Shown here: piece by piece, positions 2,313-61,267 of the stretch
Layout: every line of letters starts with the position of its first letter
How positions within the stretch are numbered: the stretch's first letter is position 1
Origin: Nannochloropsis oceanica
Lineage: Eukaryota > Sar > Eustigmatophyceae > Eustigmatales > Monodopsidaceae
Assembly: GCA_004519485.1 (NCBI GenBank)
Contig: CP038133.1
Location: forward strand, 186,001-250,000
Length of the DNA stretch: 64,000 nt
Reading direction: 5' to 3'
The notes under the pieces: model-generated
Seen by the model: the letters and a program-made list of their open reading frames with translations, nothing else
What the model was told of the DNA's origin: nothing
Database searches by the model: none
Position numbers and translations under genes: made by a program

Positions 2313-3207
2313 ATATCTGATGATGTGTGTGTGTGTGCGTGAGAAAGAGAAAGCAAGAAGGGACTCAAAAAAAGAAAATAAAAGAGATATGGAGAAGCAG
2401 TGTATGTGTGTGTGTTCGTATGTTTGTTTGAAAATATGCTGTGATAAAACTGGTTTGTGTGGGTCCGTGCGTTGGCAGTGGCGTCATATGAACTTGTGTT
2501 GAGTGTGTTTTATCTTAACAAAGAAGCAGACACAAGAGATTAAGAAGAGTAAATGAAATCAGGCCAAATGCTATTTGATTCTACATGCTTTTCTGAAAGC
2601 GTTCCTTAATCTTTAATTTTATATCTGCTGGTTGCGCATTTTCTACATCATGCTTAGTAATTTCCTAGAGGGACATTGCAATTCTATTTGAAAAATGGAT
2701 GGTGGGTGCCATACATAGCACGCCTGTGCGGAGCGCCCCGTAAATTGGGCTGAGGCAGGTGGGAAATCGCACCAACACACTACCATCATCATAAGTCATC
2801 CTGCTCACGGCGTGTATACTTTCAAACAGGGGACGAGGAAGTCGTTATGGAGCTCGGCACGCAACCCATCGCCAATCGCGGACGTGCACTCTTCCCTTTC
2901 TTTCCCTTTCCACAATTCCATCATTATTCACGCATCGCACTCACACAAAGAAATCCACCCATATAAGCATAACGCTACCATACAATTGCATATCTGCCTT
3001 GTCTAGTGCCTGTCCTTCATCTTCACCGGTGCCCAAGGCAAACCAAGCACAAGCGAATAGAGGCAACCACTCCACTTGACCTCTCACAAGAGCAGACCTT
3101 TTACCACACTCACAGGCACGACGTAACCGTAGACGTCTTCCCATGCTTTGCGACATATCCTCCTTGCCCTTATAAATCGGGCCGGCTAGATCCACGCCAC
3201 TATCAGC
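2313..3207. other. Intergenic region between LHC and TPR-DnaJ genes
   Basis: Holds the LHC 3' UTR, with a short (GT)n tract at 2325-2337 and an A-rich stretch at 2365-2390. The promoter of the following gene should lie at its right end. No further gene or repeat is seen. Confidence 0.5.
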
Positions 3208-35089: not shown

Positions 35090-37291
35090 ATGCGTCATGC
35101 AGATCTTCTCAGACCCCACTTCCACAATCATCGTACACACCCCACAGGCCACCCGAGCCCTTCCCGAGGAAGCCTCGCGGAGACAACGCTTCTTTATCAG
35201 CCTCAGAACTGTGAAGCGGGGACTGGGCTTAACCCCAACTTTCCTCGACTGTCCTCCTCCTTCTCCTTCTCCTCCTCCTCGGCGCTTCCCTGGGCCAGGT
35301 CCACGACCGCCATCACCACAATCACGAGCATTACATCAAGAAAGCGCACAGCCGTAGCCATGGACTACCCTCGACCACCACTTAGAACAGGACGACCTTC
35401 ACACGCACCCTATTCCTCGTCCTCCTCACCCTCGTCCACATCCTCGTCCACTTCCTCCTCCCCCGCCTCGACCTCCCACCTTCGACCCTCCCCAGTCAGC
35501 GTTCCCCGGAATCAATTAGCGTGGCACATCCAATCCTTCAAAGTAGGCACACATGGCCTCTGGCGCAGAGCCACTGGAGGAATGAAATCGAAATCCATCC
35601 TAAATAACATTGCGGGGCGGAGCGTGGGGGGAGAAATGACAGCGATTATGGGGGCGTCCGGTGCCGGAAAGACGACGTTGTTGGAGTGTTTGTCGTTGCG
35701 GTCGAGGGATTTCAAGGGTACAGTGACTTGGAATGGGGAGCCGGCAAAGGGAGGGTACTTTACGGCGTCTGCTTTGGTGTATCAACGCGAAGTGTTGTGT
35801 GGGTTTTTGACGGTTGAAGAACACTTGGTGTTTCACGGGATGGCGCGGATGAGTGATCGCTACAGTCAGGAGGAAATTGACAGGAGGGTATCTGAGGTAA
35901 TGGAGGAGATGGGATTGAGTAAGTGTCGTTCCACGCCCGTGGGGGGCTTGGGAGCACCGCAGGGGAAGAAGGGCCTTTCGGGAGGGGAGAGGAAAAGATT
36001 GACCGTCGCCACCGAGCTACTCTTATGCCCACAGGTCCTCTTTCTGGACGAACCGACCACGGGCATGGACTCTGTGATGGCGGAGAACATTATCGTCCTC
36101 CTCCGGCACCTGGCTTTAACGAGAAATATCCTTGTCCTTGCTACCATCCATGGGCCGTCTTCTCAGATTTTTTCCCATTTCAGTCACCTTTTACTGTTGA
36201 CAAATGATGGGCGTCTGGCTTTTCACGGTTCTGTTTCTGACGCCCTGGTGCATGTAAGTGAGGGGTTGGGAAGGCCCTTGCCGGATGCGTACAACCCGGC
36301 CGACCATTTCGTACGGCTCGTTGTAAGCAAACCAGGGGGAGGGATAAGAGCAATGGAGGAAAGGAGGAAGGAGAACGATTGGTTGGTCGAGGCCTTTGAG
36401 GCTTCAAGAAGGAAAGGAAGAAGGGAGGAAGGGATGGAGGAGGCACAGAATAGTCATTGGGGGTTGAGGGGGATGCAGACACAACATGCGAGTTGGTGGA
36501 TGTTATTCAGGCTGAACTTGAGAAGGGGGCTTCTGCAGACGTCGAGGAACAGCACGAGCTTTTGGTTGTACGGGGCGGTGATGGGCATCATTGGCTTGTG
36601 TTTCGGGACATTGTATTTCCAGCAGGCACGATCGAACTGGCGGAATCTGATGGGCATGCTGTATGCCCTGGTGGTAGCTCTGCTGTACATGTGCCCGCTG
36701 ACTGTCATTCTGAGGGCGCCTTTGGACTGGCCCATATTGTTGAGGGAGCACTTCGCAGGAGCGAACGCTGCCGGGCCGTACTTGTGTGCGAAGGTTGTGT
36801 ACGAGCTGCCTTTCCTGTACGGGCCTTTAGTGTTGGTCACGCTGTTGTACTGGATGACGGGGTTGATTGCGAGCTTGGAATCCTTCGTGGCGTTCGCGGG
36901 GGTGGTGGCCTTGGTGACGCAGGCCTCGTGCGCGATGGCTCTGATGGTCGGGTCATTGAGTGCCAACCCGATGTTGACGCTTGGGATCCTGCCGGCCTTC
37001 ATCACTCCCATGGTGTTGTTCAGCGGCTTCTTGTACGACACTGCCACTTTGCCCGGGTATCTTGCGTGGCTTCCCAAGGTGAGTATTGTGAATTATGGGT
37101 TCGCGGCCTTGGTGAGCTTACAGCAGGAGTTGTTGCCGGTGAAGGTGAGACCGATGGCGTTGAGGTTCACAAATGTGGAGCCGGCGGAGTTGAAGGAGAA
37201 TCTGGCGACGCTGGTGGGAATGACGGGCGTTTTTTATGTGTTGACTTACATGTTTTTGGCCCTGCGCTTACGAACGGCAACGAGGGCATGA
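35090..37291 (+). CDS. ABCG (White)-type half ABC transporter
   Basis: Intronless, 733 aa from ATG 35090. A second ATG at 35360 (GCCATGG context, MDYPRPPLRTG) would give 643 aa, nearer the family norm, and may be the true start; the extra N-terminus is Ser-rich. Nucleotide-binding domain: Walker A GASGAGKTTLL, Q-loop YQREVL, signature LSGGERKRLTVATEL, Walker B VLFLDEPTTGMDS, H-loop ATIHGPSS. A C-terminal membrane domain follows with about six helices (for example YGAVMGIIGLCFGTLYF, LYALVVALLYMCPLTVIL, MTGVFYVLTYMFLALRL). NBD-then-TMD order defines ABCG half-transporters, which dimerise and usually export lipids, sterols or other hydrophobic compounds. Substrate cannot be inferred. Confidence 0.92.
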   Translation: MRHADLLRPHFHNHRTHPTGHPSPSRGSLAETTLLYQPQNCEAGTGLNPNFPRLSSSFSFSSSSALPWARSTTAITTITSITSRKRTAVAMDYPRPPLRTGRPSHAPYSSSSSPSSTSSSTSSSPASTSHLRPSPVSVPRNQLAWHIQSFKVGTHGLWRRATGGMKSKSILNNIAGRSVGGEMTAIMGASGAGKTTLLECLSLRSRDFKGTVTWNGEPAKGGYFTASALVYQREVLCGFLTVEEHLVFHGMARMSDRYSQEEIDRRVSEVMEEMGLSKCRSTPVGGLGAPQGKKGLSGGERKRLTVATELLLCPQVLFLDEPTTGMDSVMAENIIVLLRHLALTRNILVLATIHGPSSQIFSHFSHLLLLTNDGRLAFHGSVSDALVHVSEGLGRPLPDAYNPADHFVRLVVSKPGGGIRAMEERRKENDWLVEAFEASRRKGRREEGMEEAQNSHWGLRGMQTQHASWWMLFRLNLRRGLLQTSRNSTSFWLYGAVMGIIGLCFGTLYFQQARSNWRNLMGMLYALVVALLYMCPLTVILRAPLDWPILLREHFAGANAAGPYLCAKVVYELPFLYGPLVLVTLLYWMTGLIASLESFVAFAGVVALVTQASCAMALMVGSLSANPMLTLGILPAFITPMVLFSGFLYDTATLPGYLAWLPKVSIVNYGFAALVSLQQELLPVKVRPMALRFTNVEPAELKENLATLVGMTGVFYVLTYMFLALRLRTATRA

Positions 37292-38300
37292 GGCCGGAAA
37301 CGGGGAGGATTTACGAAGAATGATGGAGGGATTGATGTACAAAGACAGCGAGAGTGCTGGTGAGCTGGTGAGAATGAAGATACATAGAAGAATAAAGAAA
37401 TAGAAGGAGGACGAGACGACATGAGCTCGAAAAGAGGAAAAACTTCAGGATTCAAGAGTACTTTGTATATGCTAGTGTGTGTCATTGTTAGGGACCATTG
37501 GTTAAGAGTTGGGAAAAAAGGAGGGAGGGAGAGAAGAAACGTGACGGAGGGTGCAAGCGCGCGCGACTGTTTTTTTCAAAAACAGAAGAAAAAAATGACT
37601 GAGGAGAGAATCAAACAGCAGCAGCTCTGAGCAGTGGCAGTCTCTTTTTAAAAACAATGGGAAGAAGGAATGATGACAGACGTTAAAACTCGCCCGCCTT
37701 TCCCCGGTATACGCGACCTCTCGTCTCTTATTTATCTTTCGTTCCCTTTCCTTCTGTCGATCCTTCTCTCAAGGGCGTGCACGTTTTCTTCACTTGCTTG
37801 CCTTTCACTTCCTCCCACACTCGCTCGTATTATTTCTGCCTCTCTCTCCTTCTCTCTTTTCGGTTTTATCCATCCCACTTCTTTTCTCGAAACTATATAT
37901 AAATCTCGGGGTAAAATTTTAACCGTCTCTCCAGGAGTGTGGGATCATTCATCCTCCTCTTCTCCTCCTTCTCTTGCAGCTGCCGATGCTGCTGTTTACG
38001 CGGATGCGCTTGCTCATCTTGCCTCGGCGCCTGTCTCTGTTTCCACGCTCTTTCGCGCTCTCCTTTTCGTGTCCTACCTTCTACACTATTGTGGGGGTTC
38101 TCTTCTCTTCTTAACTTTTTTAAATGCTCTCGATTGCGTTTCTTGGATTTGGCGGTTTCCTCGTCAAAATGTTAATATCTAGCACACTGTCCTTTCCGTG
38201 GTCGCATAAGATGAAATAGTTTAACAAGATTACTACTAGTATAATATATTCTCTCTCCCTCCATATCTCTTTCATCTCTGTCAATTCAGTCTCTCACACC
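37292..38300. other. Convergent intergenic region
   Basis: About 1 kb between the ABCG stop and the channel stop. Contains a CTATATATAAA word at 37891-37901 and a T/C-rich stretch. The 170-aa open frame at 37670-38182 is T/C-rich and lacks a recognisable domain; I do not call it a gene. Confidence 0.45.
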
Positions 38301-40163
38301 CTAATACAACCCCCCTCGGAACGTCTCCAGCTCAGCCTGCGGACTAAACCTCCCAATACCTTCAGTTATCTGATTCCTGAAACTATTAATCTCCGCCTCC
38401 CTCAACGACCGCTGCGTCTGGTTCTCTCTCTCCTCCTCCTCCTCCCTCTGCCTCTGCCTTAACGCCTCCGCGCTCTCTCTGTCTCGGAAATTGGTTTCCC
38501 TCCCTTGCTCCCTGAAAACATTCTCCCTCACTGTTTCCCGACCCACGGGCATCGGGAACGATCTAGTATCCACATCTTCCGACGACATCCTCCCATATCC
38601 ACCCTCTCTAAATCCCTGCTGCTGCTGCTGCTGCTGCTGCTGATGCTGTTGTTGAGGCTGTTGCGGCTGTTGTTGAAACTGTCCACGGTCGGTCGCGCCA
38701 TTCATCGCCGTTCTCATGCTGCTGATCTCTCGCTGCACATAAGCCTTCAACGAATCCACCTCCTGCTGCGACGGGGCGGAAGAGGCGGCTTTGGAGCCTT
38801 GCTGCTGCATATGCATTCGCAATCCGTCGACCTGCTGCTGGAACTCTGCGCGCAATGCCTCGATTTCCTGCTCAGGGGAGACATAACTCAAGTCTTCTTT
38901 CCCGCCACCGACAATGGAGTGGCCAAGAAAGCCGTCTGCAGAGCCGGGGGCTCCGCCCTTCCGACGCGGCGTTCTGGGGGTGCGAGGGGTCGGGGGGTAG
39001 AAGAGATGGGGTTGGCTGTCGGGATCGGCGTAGACAAGGTTGTATTGCTGGGAGAAATTCTGGCCGATGATGGTGATGGGCAGGGCGAGGGATAGGAGGC
39101 CAAAGTACGCGATAAAACAGGAGGCAATCCGTCCGCCGGTGGTGGTGGGGAAGAGGGCGGCATTGCCGAGTGTGGTTGTATTCACGATATACCAATAGAT
39201 GCCCATTATAATGGACGTAAACGGCGATTGTTCCAGGGCCGTGTTTCGTGCATTGGGTCTCAGGAAACCACCAGATGGAAACTCCAAAGTGACGCTATAA
39301 ACCCCTCCTTCAAAGTAGTACATGATTGAGCCGAAAGTCACTGCCATGACCGTCGTCAAAAAGACGAAGATAAGCAAGGCAGGAAGGGAGGCGCGGAGCG
39401 TTCTGGAGATGATTGCACCAGCTTCCCTAAAACGCCGCCCTAGCTTGAAGATTAGCAGAAACCGCAGGAAGCGGAAAATGCGGAGGAAAGTATAGGATCC
39501 GCCGGCGAAGAGGGAGATGTAGTAGGGGACGATGGAGACAACGTCGATGATATTAAGGCCTGACGTCACATACTTGGTCACCTTCTGACAGGTTGACATA
39601 CGGTAGTAGCGCGAGCGGTCCTTAAGGCGCCCGTCGATGGTGTACTCGAGGGAGCGAGGGAAGACCAGATCGACGGGCACAGGGGGCACGCAAAACACAC
39701 GCAGTACGTAGTCGATGGTGAAGATAATGATGGTAATAAGCTCCAACATCCATGTAGTGCGGTTTTCCAGAGGTCGGCAGACGACTTCAGGACACACTGT
39801 GTCGGGTCCGGGGGTGCAGATTGGGTTCGCGCAAGAGGTCGGGTACCGTAAGACGGAAGGGACGGTGCTGCTGATGAAGGCGAGTGAGTTGAGAAGGATG
39901 CAGCCCACGAGAAAGATAGAGATGTACCATGCAAGCCGACTTGAGCGGGGATGCTCCAAGGTGACGAATGTCAGGACACGCATGGCATTGAATTGGTCGG
40001 AAAAGGTGCTGTCTTGGTAGGCCAGGACTTGCTTGGCTTCCCGCACGATCTTCCTGGACTGCTTCTCCTCGGTGCGATGAGCTTCACCAATCGTGATGTT
40101 CATACCTTTGCCGCTACTATTGTACGGTGGGGTGGACGCCTGCACCTCCGTGTGGCCTGCCAT
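38301..40163 (-). CDS. Voltage-gated (Kv-like) six-helix channel with abnormal selectivity filter
   Basis: Single exon, 620 aa. After a cytosolic N-terminus: S1 (LAWYISIFLVGCILLNSLAF), a Cys-rich S1-S2 loop (CANPICTPGPDTVC), S2 (MLELITIIIFTIDYVLRVF), S3 (LNIIDVVSIVPYYISLF), S4 (FLRIFRFLRFLLIFKLGRR, ~225-243), S5 (LPALLIFVFLTTVMAVTFGS), a pore helix (SPFTSIIMGIYWYIVN) and S6 (GGRIASCFIAYFGLLSLALPITII). The S6 PITII bend equals the Kv PVP hinge. Where Kv channels have TVGYGD, this protein has TLGNAA (G333-N334-A335). S4 keeps three spaced Arg and the Lys but has Leu in place of the fourth Arg. The C-terminal tail has TPR/TPR, coiled-coil and Gln tracts. Fold is confident; K+ selectivity is doubtful. 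Confidence 0.88.
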   Translation of the reverse strand: MAGHTEVQASTPPYNSSGKGMNITIGEAHRTEEKQSRKIVREAKQVLAYQDSTFSDQFNAMRVLTFVTLEHPRSSRLAWYISIFLVGCILLNSLAFISSTVPSVLRYPTSCANPICTPGPDTVCPEVVCRPLENRTTWMLELITIIIFTIDYVLRVFCVPPVPVDLVFPRSLEYTIDGRLKDRSRYYRMSTCQKVTKYVTSGLNIIDVVSIVPYYISLFAGGSYTFLRIFRFLRFLLIFKLGRRFREAGAIISRTLRASLPALLIFVFLTTVMAVTFGSIMYYFEGGVYSVTLEFPSGGFLRPNARNTALEQSPFTSIIMGIYWYIVNTTTLGNAALFPTTTGGRIASCFIAYFGLLSLALPITIIGQNFSQQYNLVYADPDSQPHLFYPPTPRTPRTPRRKGGAPGSADGFLGHSIVGGGKEDLSYVSPEQEIEALRAEFQQQVDGLRMHMQQQGSKAASSAPSQQEVDSLKAYVQREISSMRTAMNGATDRGQFQQQPQQPQQQHQQQQQQQQQGFREGGYGRMSSEDVDTRSFPMPVGRETVRENVFREQGRETNFRDRESAEALRQRQREEEEERENQTQRSLREAEINSFRNQITEGIGRFSPQAELETFRGGLY

Positions 40164-41096
40164 GGCTTGAGGTTTGGGCTAGGTAGCGGGCAAGGGAAGA
40201 GGGTGTTGCCGGCGCCTGAGGAGTGGTGGGGGTGAAAGGGATGGGGAATGGGGAATGGGGAGTGGGGAGTGGGGAGGCGTGTGGTTGGTAGGTGGATGAT
40301 ATTTTCGTGGCTGTGTGTAATCGTCTTATATAATGCTCTCCATCACTTAGTTGACGTGCCGGCCATTTCGATCCACCCGTGGCTAATGTATATGCTTGTG
40401 CTGGTGCATTTTTCGGGCTTGAACCACACACGATCCCTGAACGTCATCGTGTCAAATCCGCGCTCACGAAAATAGGCCCCGGGGGTGATCGTGGAAAGGC
40501 AACGACTGGTTGCTGAATGAGACAAGCACAACAAGAAAAGGGTGCATCACGAGAGCCACCCAGGTGGACAAGGACGCATATTCGCACAATTCAGGAAGAG
40601 CTCCAAGTTGCCGCTGCTCTTCAACGCAAGGAAGAGCGACGAGCAGCGACGCCATTAGTCTGGCGTATTTTGTACTTTCCTCGGCTGAAGCCAAAGCCAC
40701 CGGTAGCATTAGAAGGTGTATAATGTACATATACTTGCGTGCGTCTGCGGTTCATTTGATTTTAGCGGAGACCAACTCAGTTGGGTGGCTAACAAGGGAC
40801 GTGCATCCCTTGTGTGTGCGGGGATGCCATGACTGTTTTTTTTCGACAAACGGGAAATCGTCGATTTCCCTTCCGATCGGATGAGCGATGATGTTAATTG
40901 TGGGGCCTCTCTCAGATGACACGATCATGTTTATATTTCATGTTTGTTTTGCGCGTTAGCCGGAATCCAAGTGTGTTTCTTGACGACGAAGCCTACACAC
41001 TCATACCGAATCCCCTTTCCCCGACCTCCCCACCCTCAAACCCGCGGCCCAGGTGCTACAGAACACACAGAACCGCCCCATTCTCGAGCTTTGGTT
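40164..41096. other. Divergent intergenic region (channel / lipase)
   Basis: 933 bp containing both promoters. A nearly perfect inverted repeat, GGGAAATCG-T-CGATTTCCC, lies at 40852-40870. GGGGAATGGGGAGTGGGGAGT short repeats are at 40240-40280. The open frame of the lipase extends left to 40944 but without a better start. Confidence 0.45.
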
Positions 41097-42355
41097 ATGT
41101 GTCCTTCAGATGCCAGTGGATGCGTTTGTCTGGCTTTGCTCCTCGTCGCAATTGCCACAACAGCCGCCCCTGCGCCCTTATCTGGAGCGCCTGCCGAAAG
41201 CGATACCTCCAGCAGCATCCCGAATGTGCGCGGCGCTTCTCCCCCCGGATCGTCGTCACAGACACAGAAGCTGACATCGCAATCATCGCCTAAAGACATT
41301 GGCTGGACCTGGCCGTCGTGGGATAGCAGAAAAAACAATGCCAGCGGTACCGCCGCCAGCGCCATTACAGACAACGAGAACATTGATTATTCAGACTACA
41401 CAAGAAAGAATGGTGCGGCAACCGCGCCCGCCGGAGAGTATCCCGCTTGTTTCATCCAAGCGTCCATGAACAAGGATGGCTTAATCTGCATGGCGGGCTC
41501 CGGCTGGCTGGCATTGACCCAGCTTTTACCCCCTCAATTGGGCTCGGGGGCGGAGGTCCGTGCTCCTGTCGATCCAAACAAGGAACTCCCCCGGCTCTTG
41601 GCCAAGATCCCTATGCCCTTGCCCGCCATTGTGCCAGCGGCACTAAGCAAGGCAGAGAGACCCACATACTACTTCATGTATCGAACCATTTTGAATTTTT
41701 ACGCGGCTGTTGGCTTGGGCGGCGTGGGCGGCAGCGGCGCGATGCTGGACTTAGGTCTGCCGGCAGAATGGACCAATCAGAGGGAGTACACCTTGCAGAA
41801 CACCAACAGCGTGATTGCCGGAGTCCTGCAGCAACAGGTGCCGTTTGCTGTGAGCTATACGAGAGGGGATGAAATGCTCGTGGTGGTGCGGGGTACGATT
41901 TATCCAGCAGAGTGGCAACGTGATTTTCAGTACCAGCATGCAAAGCCCTCCGAGACAGCGCCTTTCAAATTTCCGGGTAACGTGCACGCGGGTTTCTTTG
42001 CTGTTTTCAAAGATTTGGCAGAGCTGTTGATCGATGAGGAGATTAAGACACGCGCGCCTAAGAAGGTGACGTTTACAGGGCATTCCCTGGGGGGGTCGGT
42101 GGCGGCATTGCTAGCGTTCTACGCAAGTATGTTCGTCGCGACCACGGAGTTAATTTCGTTCGGAGCCCCCAATGTGGGCGATGCAACGTTTTCTGAGGCT
42201 TTCAATGTCAGGGTGAACAATCGGCATTTGGCCTTTTCAGGGGTGGGCAGTCGCGAGGGTTCTTACTTGATTGGTGATTGGATCGCCCAGGTACCTTGTG
42301 GGGCGGTCACGACCTGCCCGCTGCTGACGGAGATGAGCTCAATAAATCTTGGTCA

Positions 42356-42395
<40 letters not shown>

Positions 42396-42662
42396 GAGGT
42401 TCAGGTGCAGCAGGAAGAAGTGTCGTATGACTATACAGCTCTGGGCGGGGCAGTCCCATTTACGCCTGCGGATATGTTAAACAATTTGACATGGGCGACC
42501 CGCTCCGACGTGACGAGCTTTCGGTATTCACCCGTGGCGTCTCATGTGTGTAGTTATTTGTGTTTTACTGCTCCATCGGTGGGGGATGATTATAATCAAT
42601 GTGTGTTTACGCTGGAGATGAGTGACGTGGATATGAATAAGCGATGTGTGATAAACTTGTAA
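41097..42662 (+). CDS. Class 3 lipase (alpha/beta hydrolase), secreted or endomembrane
   Basis: Intronless, 521 aa from ATG 41097, chosen because it opens a signal peptide (CVCLALLLVAIATTAAPA). The frame is open leftward to 40944. Lipase_3 landmarks: FAVSYTRGDEMLVVVRGTIY (oxyanion region), nucleophile elbow GHSLGG with S330, SFGAPNVGDATF, then GDWIAQVPCG with D394 as likely acid and H483 in YSPVASHVCSY as likely base. The family hydrolyses acylglycerols or galactolipids/phospholipids. A Gln tract (CAG repeat near 42355-42395) lies between the Asp and His segments, an unusual insertion in a catalytic domain. Cysteines near the C-terminus (CGAVTTCP, CSYLC) suit a disulphide-forming compartment. 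Substrate unknown. Confidence 0.88.
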
Positions 42663-43079: not shown

Positions 43080-44686
43080 CTATGCCAGCGCCCCAATCTC
43101 ATACTCGGCAATCACATCCCACACACTTACAGGGTGCTGCGGCCCGTGGAAGCCCTTACTAGAATCTTGGCCAACGAAATTCAATATCGCGTCGTCCCCC
43201 GGGTGGACATCCACGTACTCAGTCACGTCATAAACCTTCCCATCAACGACGATCCACGCATCCTCTCTCTTCTTATGCCTCGCAACCTGTTCCATCGTAA
43301 ATCTCGGGATGACCTCCCATTTCTTCACTGTTGCCCGTCGAGGCTTTGGCGCGCGTGAGTTCACAAGCTCGGGCATCATCTCCTGGAAACACAACGCCAA
43401 AGCCTCTTCTTGCGTCCAGGCCGGCTCGTACCCCAACAGACGCTTCGCCTTCTCAATGCTATAATAATGGTGTGTTGTCAGGTACTGCACCCTAGACCGT
43501 GTGAATGTCGGTTGAAACACCACGCCAATCTTCCTCAAAATCGCGGCCAAGCCGTCCATCCCCCCTCCTATCACCGCCATGGCCCCCGCTGGCAGTCGCA
43601 CACTCGGCGCTGCATACCCAAAACCCGTCAATACCTTTGCCAGAAAATCCCAAAAAGGCAAAGGCGCATCATTTGTGATGAAAAATGCCTGCCCGTCTAC
43701 GCCTTTCACCACCCCTAGCTTCTCCGCGGCCAGCAAGTGGGCATGAGCAACGTTACCCACAAACGTGAAGTCAGCTACATTCTTCCCCTCCCCCAAGGCA
43801 TACTTAGTCTTCCCTTTCCGCGCACTTTCCACAAGGACGGGAAAAAATTGCCGGTCACCAGGTCCGAAGATCCCATGGGGGCGAATGGCGGCGGTTAGCA
43901 TGCCTTCTTGTCCGTTTGCTGCTAGGACCAACGCCTCTGCTTCGGCTTTTGTTTTGGTGTAAGAGTCAAGACTAGCGGTAGGGATAGGTGTAGCTTCATC
44001 CGCGCCTGCTTGATCTCTTCCCTCGTAGACGACACTGGCAGAAGAGGTAAACACAAAACGTTTGACCCCAGCGGCGGCGGAAGCTTGAAGGAGGTTTTGG
44101 GTGCCGGTCACGTTGACCGCATATTGGACAGCAGGAGGATGGGAGGCATGGGGAGCTGCCACATGATAGACAACCTCGATGCCTACCACGGCCTTGGCGA
44201 CATCGACTGGATCGACTAGGTTGCCGACCACCATCTTGACGCGGGGTTCGTTTTGGAACCCCCCCGAGATGTCAAAGACGGTGACTTCGCAGCCTTGTTC
44301 GAGGAGCATTGAGACAATGCGCCGGCCCACAAAACCGTTCCCGCCAGTGACCATCGCTTTTTTAGGGAGCTTATACTTGAGGCGGCGGTGCAGAACCTCG
44401 TCGGGGACTTCGACAAGGATGGGGACAGGGGCCTTGGGGTCGAGCTTGATTGAGCAGGAGGAGGAGGAGGGCTGGTGTGTAGGAGGTCGGAGGGAAGAGG
44501 GGAGATGAGTATGGTAGGAGGAGCAAGCCTTTGATGTCCCAACCCTCTGATTGGCACAGCATAGACTACACATACCTTAACAACCATCAACAGGGCGAGC
44601 AGTACGACTGCCATGACGACCATCACGGCCGAAGTCGAGAAAGACTCGGCGTCAAATAAGGGAAGCATCGCGTAGCTGACGGGCAT
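43080..44686 (-). CDS. Sterol-4-alpha-carboxylate 3-dehydrogenase (3-beta-HSD) fused to cytochrome b5
   Basis: Two exons: 44686-44576 and 44444-43080, phase 0, donor AAG|GTATGT; 491 aa. Exon 1 codes a membrane anchor (AVMVVMAVVLLALLMVV). Exon 2 has the NAD-binding TGGNGFVGRRI (70-80), FTSSASVVYEG, catalytic Y199-TKTK with K203, IRPHGIFGPGD and VADFTFVGNVAHAH, the pattern of the NAD-dependent C4-decarboxylating enzyme of sterol biosynthesis (ERG26/NSDHL). After ~400 residues a cytochrome b5 domain follows: MEQVARHKKREDAWIVVDGK, VYDVTEYVDVHPGDDAIL, with haem-ligand candidates H451 and H474. In the pathway b5 feeds electrons to the C4-methyl oxidase, the preceding step, so the fusion couples consecutive steps. 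HPGD replaces the usual HPGG. Confidence 0.9.
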
Positions 44687-58806: not shown

Positions 58807-61267
58807 ATGCCATATCACGAACAAAGCATACGAGATGTCAGGGCTGAGTGGTACGATGAAGACATGGACTTTGAGCCAAACAGGGTCAAGGTCAAGACCG
58901 TGAATCCATTGGAGCTGGCGCACAGCAGCAGTATCACAATACCTGACTCTCCTCAGAGGTATCGGGATAAACGCACCACGTGGGAGCGGCATCGCAACAA
59001 GTTACCTTGGTGTGGGCTCTTCGTGTTATTGGCTTTACTCGTCGGCGTTGCCCTCGCCGTCTTCTACCCTAAGAGGCCGCAGGTGTCGCTATTTACCTCA
59101 AGCGTTCTGGAAATCGACGGCTTTGTTGGTAAGGGTTGTGAAGAAGCAAGAGGAAGAACGTGCCGCTCTACTGTAAAAAGTGAGCATACCGTAAACCGAG
59201 TCAGCTCCTCATAATTCGTGCTTTCCATCCATACCAAACGTTACAACACCAACAGGGGCCAGAGCCAATTTTGTCGTAAAAATCGATAATCCGAATTACT
59301 TCGCGTTCAATGTGGACGACGTGGTTGCCGAAGTTTCCGGGTACGACGGCAAGCAAATCGGCACCCTCCTCCGACCGGAACATTTTCAAGTCGATAGAAG
59401 GACGACATCCTTTATGCCAGCCACGGGAATATTCCAAAACAACCTGCTACAAGTGGGTTTAATTGGAATGGACTGCATGAACAATAGGGGCATGACACTC
59501 ATACATATCAATGCAGCGGCGAACGTGAGAATTCTGGGGAGGAATCGTCGGGTTTCAATGATCATCACTGAGCCCGTGGCCTGCGCCGTCAGAAACGTGG
59601 CTGGTAGCAATAATGGAAGTATGGTTGACGGCAATGATCGAAATATGATTGATGACGATAGTACACCGGGCCGTTGGAGACCCTCGCCTATTGATCCTTC
59701 TTCGCCTGTGCGCCAAGGCAATGATCTAAGTGGTGGTGGTAATCAGGGTGATGGCAATCAAGCCAGTGGTGGCAATCAAGCTGGTGGTGCAGGTAACCAG
59801 GCCGGCGTGGGCGACCAACCTGCTGGTGCTGGTAGTCAGGCGGGTGGTGCCAATCAGGCCGGTACGGGTAATCAGGCTGGTGGTGCTGGGTATAAACCTG
59901 GTGCTGGCAACCAAGCGGAAGGTGGTAACCAGGCTAGTGATGCTGGTGGTGGTCAGGCCGGTGCTGGCAACCAAGCCGGTGGTAGCAATCAGGCTTGGGG
60001 TGGTGGCGCTAATCAAGCTTGGGGTGGTGGTGGTCAGGCTGGTGCTGGCGACCAAGCCGGTGGTGGTAGTCAGGCTGGTGCTGGTAGTGCTGCGGGTGGT
60101 GGTTTAAATCAGGGCAGTGGTGGAAATCAGGCTTGGGGTAGTGGTGGTAATCAAGCTTGGGGTGGTGGCGCTAATCAAGCTTGGGGTGGTGGTGGTCAGG
60201 CTGGTGCTGGCAACCAAGCCGGTGGTGGTAGTCAGGCTGGTGCTGGTAGTGCTGCGGGTAGTGGTTTAAATCAGGGCAGCGGTGGTAATCAGGCTTGGGG
60301 TAGTGGTGGTAATCAAGCTTGGGGTGGTGGTGGTCAGGCTGGTGCTGGCGACCAAGCCGGTGGTGGTGGTCAGGCTGGTGCTGGTAGTGCTGCGGGTAGT
60401 GGTTTAAATCAGGGCAGCGGTGGTAATCAGGCTTGGGGTAGTGGTGGTAATCAAGCTTGGGGTGGTGGTGGTCAGGCTGGTGCTGGCAACCAAGCCGGTG
60501 GTGGTAGTCAGGCTGGTGCTGGTAGTGCTGCGGGTAGTGGTTTAAATCAGGGCAGCGGTGGTAATCAGGCTTGGGGTAGTGGTGGTAATCAAGCTTGGGG
60601 TGGTGGTGGTCAGGCTGGTGCTGGCGACCAAGCCGGTGGTGGTGGTCAGGCTGGTGCTGGTAGTGCTGCGGGTAGTGGTTTAAATCAGGGCAGCGGTGGT
60701 AATCAGGCTTGGGGTAGTGGTGGTAATCAAGCTTGGGGTGGTGGTAGTCAGGCTGGTGCTGGTAGTGCTGCGGGTAGTGGTTTAAATCAGGGCGGTGGTG
60801 GAAATCAGGCTTGGGGTGGTGGTAATCAGGCTTGGGGTGGTGGTAGTCAGGCTGGTGCTGGCGACCAAGCCGGTGGTGGTAGTCAGGCTGGTGCTGGTAG
60901 TGCTGCGGGTAGTGGTTTAAATCAGGGCGGTGGTGGTAATCAGGCCTGGGGTGGTGGTAATCAGGCTTGGGGTGGTGGTGGTCAGGCTGGTGCTGGCGAC
61001 CAAGCCGGTGGTGGTGGTCAGGCTGGTGCTGGTGGTGCTGCGGGTAGTGGTTTAAATCAGGGCGGTGGTGGAAATCAGGCTTGGGGTGGTAATCAGGCTT
61101 GGGGTGGTGGCGGTAATCAAGCTTGGGGTGGTGATAGTAGTAGTTCCGTGTCCCAAGCTGATGGTGTTTCTCAGGCGCAGGCTGTCGCTGGTAAAACTCC
61201 CAATTCTCAGGCTGGTGCACCCTCACAATCTGGTGGCGGCGTTGGCGCATGGCGCTGGTGGGGGTAA
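58807..61267 (+). CDS. LEA2-like type II membrane protein with long Gly/Gln/Asn/Trp repeat tail (copy B)
   Basis: Two exons: 58807-59128 and 59256-61267, phase 1; 777 aa. Residues 67-87 are one membrane segment (LPWCGLFVLLALLVGVALAV) after a basic stretch, so the C-terminus should be luminal or extracellular. The LEA2-like domain (~88-245) matches copy A: FYPKRPQVSLFTSSVLEIDGF, RANFVVKIDNPNYFAFNVDD, IGTLLRPEHFQVDRRT, LLQVGLIGMDCMN. From ~264 to ~735 the protein is a repeat of NQAWG, QAGAG and LNQG blocks, almost without charge, like silk or adhesive proteins. The main unit is 46 residues. The short end is SQAGAPSQSGGGVGAW. The first ATG in frame is used. Possible role in wall or membrane-wall linkage is inference from topology and composition. 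Confidence 0.82.
60101..61060 (+). repeat. 138-bp (46-residue) tandem repeat array in the LEA2-like copy B tail
   Basis: The anchor word GGTTTAAATC recurs at 60101, 60263, 60401, 60539, 60677, 60779, 60914 and 61049. Spacings are 162, 138, 138, 138, 102, 135 and 135 bp, all multiples of three. Units alternate GDQAGGGG and GNQAGGGS versions, indicating a two-unit (276 bp) higher-order duplication in the middle. Neighbouring units are nearly identical in DNA. Confidence 0.93.

Follow-up and report, generated by a model that had tools for sequence, protein, structure and literature searches.

The window analysed here, 64,000 nucleotides of the Nannochloropsis oceanica genome (contig CP038133.1, positions 186,001 to 250,000), carries on its minus strand a Kv-type gene, KvA, which occupies a single open frame of 620 codons and a stop (window positions 38301-40163, of which 38304-40163 are stop-free). 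Its product matches the Pfam families Ion_trans (1.4e-29) and Ion_trans_2 (7.3e-5), and the closest solved structure in a search of the PDB was Kv3.1 (5e-23). A single-chain AlphaFold2 model built on 65 aligned sequences, of a kind that is silent about conduction, had a mean pLDDT of 84.9 and placed S1 to S6 and the pore helix in order, so that Pfam and model both identify a six-helix Ion_trans domain with a re-entrant pore.

All features of KvA are given on the minus strand. Following the S1 helix (residues 76-100; 39864-39938), the S1-S2 linker (39762-39863) contains four cysteines in a motif, C..P.C.PG...C..(V/I)C, that are invariant across KvA and two of its paralogues, KvB and KvC. The model and the conserved columns place E141, F148 and D151 in S2 (residues 135-157; 39693-39761), the last of these being Glu in prokaryotic channels, and D207 in S3 (residues 202-219; 39507-39560), a position that is Asp in 100% of 80 prokaryotic sequences. 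The S4 voltage sensor (residues 224-241; 39441-39494), identified from alignments and model, reads R228, R231, R234, L237 and K240, followed by R243; the fourth arginine is therefore Leu in KvA, compared with Arg in 99% of prokaryotic sequences. Five of six S4 charges are thus retained, together with their acidic partners in S2 and S3 (E141, D151 and D207). In the pore half of the model, the S4-S5 linker and S5 (residues 243-285; 39309-39437) lead into an outer pore turret beginning GGVYSVTLEFPSGGFLRP (residues 287-314; 39222-39305), recognised by its identity to the paralogues, and a pore helix (residues 318-330; 39174-39212). S6 (residues 342-378; 39030-39140) contains P362 within ALPITII, where every one of the 80 prokaryotic sequences also has Pro. 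The remaining residues, 379-620 (38304-39029), form a tail rich in polyQ and charged stretches, in which a Pfam scan recognised no domain (only a TFIIA match, under its cut-off) and a crude heptad scan found no coiled-coil signal. The N-terminal T1 (BTB_2) domain, which defines the Kv1-Kv4 subfamilies, was absent from the three Pfam families that KvA matched up to E 1.

Few motifs in channels are more conserved than the K+ filter, which is changed in KvA. The minus-strand frame contains MGIYWYIVNTTTLGNAALFPTTTGGR around the filter, and direct reading of the codons at window positions 39179-39147 (ACA ACC ACA CTC GGC AAT GCC GCC CTC TTC CCC) gave the segment TTTLGNAALFP, residues 329-339 (39147-39179), rather than residues 330-340 as originally numbered. 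Across four alignments, GNAA (residues 333-336; 39156-39167) aligned without gaps to GYGD or GFGD of canonical channels, including TTVGYGDMYP, bearing out the original observation of a filter change in a Kv-like channel; the TxG[YF]G signature is accordingly missing, and the corresponding residues read TTLGNAA. A 62-amino-acid pore piece alone aligned gap-free to a Kv1.2 chain, and all 60 matches listed, of 128, were K+ channels (Kv, KcsA or KCNQ). The inner-filter residues T330, T331 and G333 are kept, and residues 328-337 of the model had a mean pLDDT of 80. The remainder of the channel, initially described as intact, does have six helices, a pore helix and the S6 proline in one frame, but it also has L237 in S4 and three departures from the prokaryotic consensus in or beside the pore helix (P319I, A325Y and T328N). 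Position 325 is Val in KvB and KvC versus Tyr in KvA, and the consensus M329 varies in KvB and KvC as well. KvA belongs to the Kv-type family but has lost the K+ filter, and GYGD is absent. Because GYGD reads GNAA, the protein probably cannot serve as an ordinary K+ channel; it may act as a partner subunit with a regulatory role or conduct other ions.

Protein and Pfam-family searches of the assembly (29,264,788 bases in 32 contigs) found three close paralogues, giving four Kv-type genes in this alga, two canonical and two without a K+ filter. KvB (contig C5) and KvC (contig C25), both known from partial gene models, resemble KvA in architecture, in the Cys-rich S1-S2 linker and in the turret motif, but have introns and keep the filter, as TTVGYGDLYP in KvB and, after GT-AG joining, as TTVGFGDFYP in KvC, where a filter codon is interrupted by an intron (GGA T|TC GGT GAT, GFGD; about 2825-3152 of the locus extracted from C25). 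KvD (C12:332677-334776), like KvA, lacks the signature, its filter reading DTTPMPTVIMLVP, and it likewise has a single open frame (699 codons) and keeps the turret motif; it is more diverged than KvA, with a long insert in S1-S2, another before S4 and two S4 arginine positions changed. Core identity of KvA was 98/285 to KvB (about 34%), 107/286 to KvC (37%) and 80/273 to KvD, and turret identity was 13/27, 10/28 and 11/27, respectively. Where KvB and KvC agree with each other, KvA shares the residue at 11/15 positions of the S1-S2 linker, 6/8 in S2, 8/11 in the turret and 8/13 in S6, but at only 1/5 in S5 and 1/4 in the filter.

Retention of conserved positions was scored over 74 columns in which at least 85% of the 80 prokaryotic Kv channels have the same residue. 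KvA kept 38 of 68 (6 gaps), similar to KvB (37/73, 1 gap) and KvC (40/68, 6 gaps), with KvD at 27/74; these similar counts indicate that KvA is under roughly the same constraint as the two canonical genes. Positions outside the filter that are conserved as in the paralogues, together with a confident model, make KvA unlike a pseudogene, and the 620 open codons add to the case, in agreement with the initial view that the gene is not one. A disabled or decaying gene that is still in frame would account for the fact that each of the three changes lies one base from a GYGD codon, for R237L and P319I as additional departures, and for the codon score, which was lowest in the pore (residues 280-345; 0.019, versus 0.062-0.098 elsewhere). 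We nevertheless consider decay improbable, given the open frame, a retention of conserved positions comparable to that of KvB and KvC, and a core identity to the paralogues of 34-37%, which indicates an old gene whose frame is still open. Over its whole length KvA had a codon score of 0.069 against seven open reading frames of the window and exceeded all 500 uniform-synonym recodings (maximum -0.009), a weak control because base composition alone may produce such a score (GC3 0.68 vs 0.62).

An artefact of sequencing or splicing that conceals a true GYGD is more improbable still. The change consists of three in-frame substitutions and no indel, which would not match the pattern of long-read indel error, and the frame is unbroken from S1 past S6, with a continuous reading from S5 to S6. 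In six frames over 36000-42500, no alternative unsplit exon with an intact signature was found near KvA: the sole G[YFL]GD was a GLGD at 36907 in the wrong frame of an ABC gene, and the three TxG[YFL]G strings all lacked channel context. A scan of this kind is blind to a filter split by an intron, and one split as in KvC would evade it; even so, with S6 reached in frame and no unsplit channel-type exon in this interval, the differently spliced pore once envisaged finds no support.

Upstream of KvA, and head to head with it, a class-3 lipase gene (PF01764; 41097-42662, plus strand) starts 0.9 kb away. The window also holds a single open reading frame that joins a 3-beta-hydroxysteroid dehydrogenase/isomerase domain to a C-terminal cytochrome b5 domain (43083-44540, minus strand), and a long one with tandem repeats of the NQAWGGG/QAGAG type (59195-61267, plus strand). 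KvB, too, has a lipase paralogue no more than about 1.7 kb away (C5:1346498-1347561, minus strand), though oriented differently; its match to the lipase beside KvA falls into three pieces with 45-49% identity and a summed score of 143 bits. A Kv-lipase pair has possibly been kept in two places; as proof of a joint duplication of KvA and KvB the link is unproven, since a lipase on contig C6 scores equally (143 bits, 37%), and the trees described below do not place KvA beside KvB, though each is near a lipase-3 gene. In a third neighbourhood of lipase and channel, a lipase-3-like match (C26:336222-336762) is separated by about 3.5 kb from a series of Ion_trans domains encoded in long open frames (C26:340272-345822).

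The signature was universal among the relatives retained from profile searches, which comprised the best 80 of at least 559 prokaryotic sequences and 20 viral ones, several of the latter being near-duplicates. TTxG[YF]GD was present in 100 of 100 (80/80 prokaryotic, 20/20 viral), a count that leans canonical because the ranking was led by the canonical KvB and only the best 80 of at least 559 were kept, so that odd filters may be under-represented. Within these 80, the filters were TTVGYGD (69), TTVGFGD (8), TTLGYGD (2) and TTIGYGD (1), and all 20 viral filters were TTVGYGD. Single-sequence scans of viral and of prokaryotic contigs with KvA found no relative. Among the papers listed, judged by title or abstract opening, we found no report of a KvA-like algal Kv-type gene with a GNAA filter, nor of an alga in which two of four Kv-type genes lack the signature. 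K+-channel relatives without the signature are already known in protists, and GNAA in an algal Kv-type gene is a variant among these.

Trees were calculated with and without the filter columns. With these columns dropped and Kv3.1 excluded, the four algal proteins grouped against 20 prokaryotic sequences with support of 100/100, and with 80 prokaryotic sequences and Kv3.1 they fell on one side of a branch supported at 97/70. When the filter columns were included, KvA and KvD separated from the other 83 sequences (100/90), on a tree in which the KvD branch was 8.8 long; when they were dropped, with Kv3.1 included but KvD omitted, an open fork was formed by KvA, Kv3.1 and KvB+KvC. We therefore claim neither a single loss of the signature in KvA and KvD, a grouping seen with filter columns and lost for KvA when they were dropped, nor a firm algal clade against animal Kv channels, given the open fork with Kv3.1.

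What such a protein might do is informed by the human channel KCNQ1, in which GYGD occupies residues 314-317 and the change to GNAA would correspond to Y315N, G316A and D317A. Each of the three is listed as pathogenic or likely pathogenic, and dominant-negative, in the accessible portion of a large KCNQ1 variant scan (PMC12724399, a preprint), where variants are classed as dominant-negative from abundance and function scores combined. A table of long-QT variants also holds Y315N and G628A, by their numbering in KCNQ1 and hERG, respectively (PMC7212895, in part). These are the three changes of KvA, each taken singly, but a match of three out of three is not very specific because filter positions tolerate little: the same portion of the preprint counts, on average, 11 dominant-negative variants for each KCNQ1 filter residue (PMC12724399). 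With the class also resting on two scores combined, we regard the match as suggestive rather than strong. From trypanosomes, sections of one paper report that a Tyr-to-Ala filter change abolished the currents of TcCAKC in Trypanosoma cruzi and that TbK1 of T. brucei, said there to have no conserved filter, requires TbK2 for significant current (PMC6974456, the latter citing Steinmann 2015).

The reading that we favour, tentatively, is that KvA is a non-conducting or modulatory subunit that joins its canonical paralogues. KvA would fold with its voltage sensor and S6 gate, enter tetramers with GYGD (KvB) or GFGD (KvC) subunits, and thereby lower or alter their K+ current; its expression, membrane localisation, working sensor, co-assembly and effect on current are what we infer in making this proposal. 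As in the case of TbK1, a canonical candidate partner is available in the same genome, here in the form of both KvB and KvC. The turret and S1-S2 cysteine motif common to KvA and these paralogues support the reading, as do the intact frame and the retention of conserved positions outside the filter. Heteromers are not assured, because core identity is about 34% and 37% to KvB and KvC, respectively, and agreement in S5 is 1/5. Counting further against the favoured reading, A325Y and T328N may be signs of a filter remodelled for conduction, and a protein without the signature, TcCat, is reported to conduct K+ and Na+ (PMC3369953, in the sections available).

A conducting KvA, with homotetramers that pass cations in a voltage-gated manner with weak or no K+ selectivity (Na+/K+ or non-selective), is possible but less probable. 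Here, TTLG would still form the lining of the inner filter, while at the Tyr level each of the four subunits would contribute an Asn side chain to a ring. Retention of T330, T331, G333 and the S6 proline would suit such a pore, and A325Y and T328N beside the filter may be accommodation to it; the filter segment has no acidic residue, however, and presumably does not resemble Nav-type filters. Although TcCat conducts with a K+/Na+ selectivity of about 2.5 (PMC3369953) and TbIRK, also without the signature, still prefers K+ more than sevenfold (PMC5429665), according to the parts of these papers available, each of the KCNQ1 equivalents of the KvA changes is listed as dominant-negative (PMC12724399, preprint, in part). 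Weighing KCNQ1, TbK1 and TcCAKC against TcCat and TbIRK, we therefore place the subunit first and the weakly selective homomer second. Changed selectivity, the function originally predicted, is thus a possible outcome but not the preferred one: because the KCNQ1 changes are dominant-negative and the genome holds two canonical paralogues, such a change is no more likely than a regulatory or non-conducting subunit. For the suggestion of a proton channel, nothing observed speaks for proton conduction in particular. That homotetrameric, voltage-gated KvA is a Kv pore rebuilt around an asparagine ring (GNAA) and conducting Na+ or mixed cations is unlikely; if true, its selectivity would have shifted away from K+ along a path separate from the Nav/Cav and EukCat lines, within a set of four genes of which two have no K+ filter.

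Alternatively, KvA might act alone as a non-conducting voltage sensor, through gating movement or its tail and without other Kv subunits. The five of six S4 charges and the acidic residues E141, D151 and D207 would serve this role, and the protein has a long tail of its own. We think it improbable, since the turret and S6 proline, needless for a pure sensor, are kept too and Pfam recognised no domain in the tail.

KvA is a natural gene that keeps the rest of the Kv machine beside three filter substitutions, every one of which is dominant-negative when made in human KCNQ1. It thereby tests whether substitutions of this kind always end conduction or can instead give rise to a regulatory subunit or to a different selectivity. 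With so few Kv-type genes found in this alga, two canonical and two lacking the signature, co-expression could address the question.

Among known systems, KvA resembles Shaker-type Kv channels (Kv1.2, Kv3.1) in its six helices, S2 and S3 acidic residues, S4 charges, pore helix and S6 proline, but differs in having GNAA for GYGD, Leu as the fourth S4 arginine and no T1 domain among its Pfam matches. Unlike KvA, animal silent Kv subunits (KvS) keep the GYG filter. These subunits form functional channels as heteromers with Kv2 (PMC12113274, in part). EukCat Na+/Ca2+ channels are, like KvA, single-domain, voltage-gated and present in algae, but are described in the available text as similar to bacterial Nav (PMC11085791); in comparison with that description, the pore of KvA, whose 60 listed matches of 128 include K+ channels exclusively, is not of a bacterial-Nav-related type. 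In TPK channels of green and red algae, which have two pores where KvA has one, the second pore spans everything from GYGD to a wholly missing motif, and the first varies only at the Y, as far as the source covers them (PMC8619664). TcCat of Trypanosoma cruzi is likewise a K+-channel relative without TxG[YF]G, but has 297 amino acids, different filter letters and measured K+/Na+ permeability (PMC3369953, in part). TbIRK of T. brucei is described, in excerpts of its report, as another relative without the classical signature, although of the two-helix inward rectifier type, with GGYVG at the filter and a preference for K+ (PMC5429665). A parallel to the proposed subunit role comes from TbK1/TbK2 and the kinetoplastid GYX proteins, in which a subunit with a departed filter occurs beside canonical ones (PMC6974456, PMC3283738). 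In the portions of these sources available, they are of the Ca2+-activated type, with GYX filters reading GYSD, GYSE or GYRD rather than GNAA, and the GYX proteins are encoded close to the canonical ones (PMC3283738).
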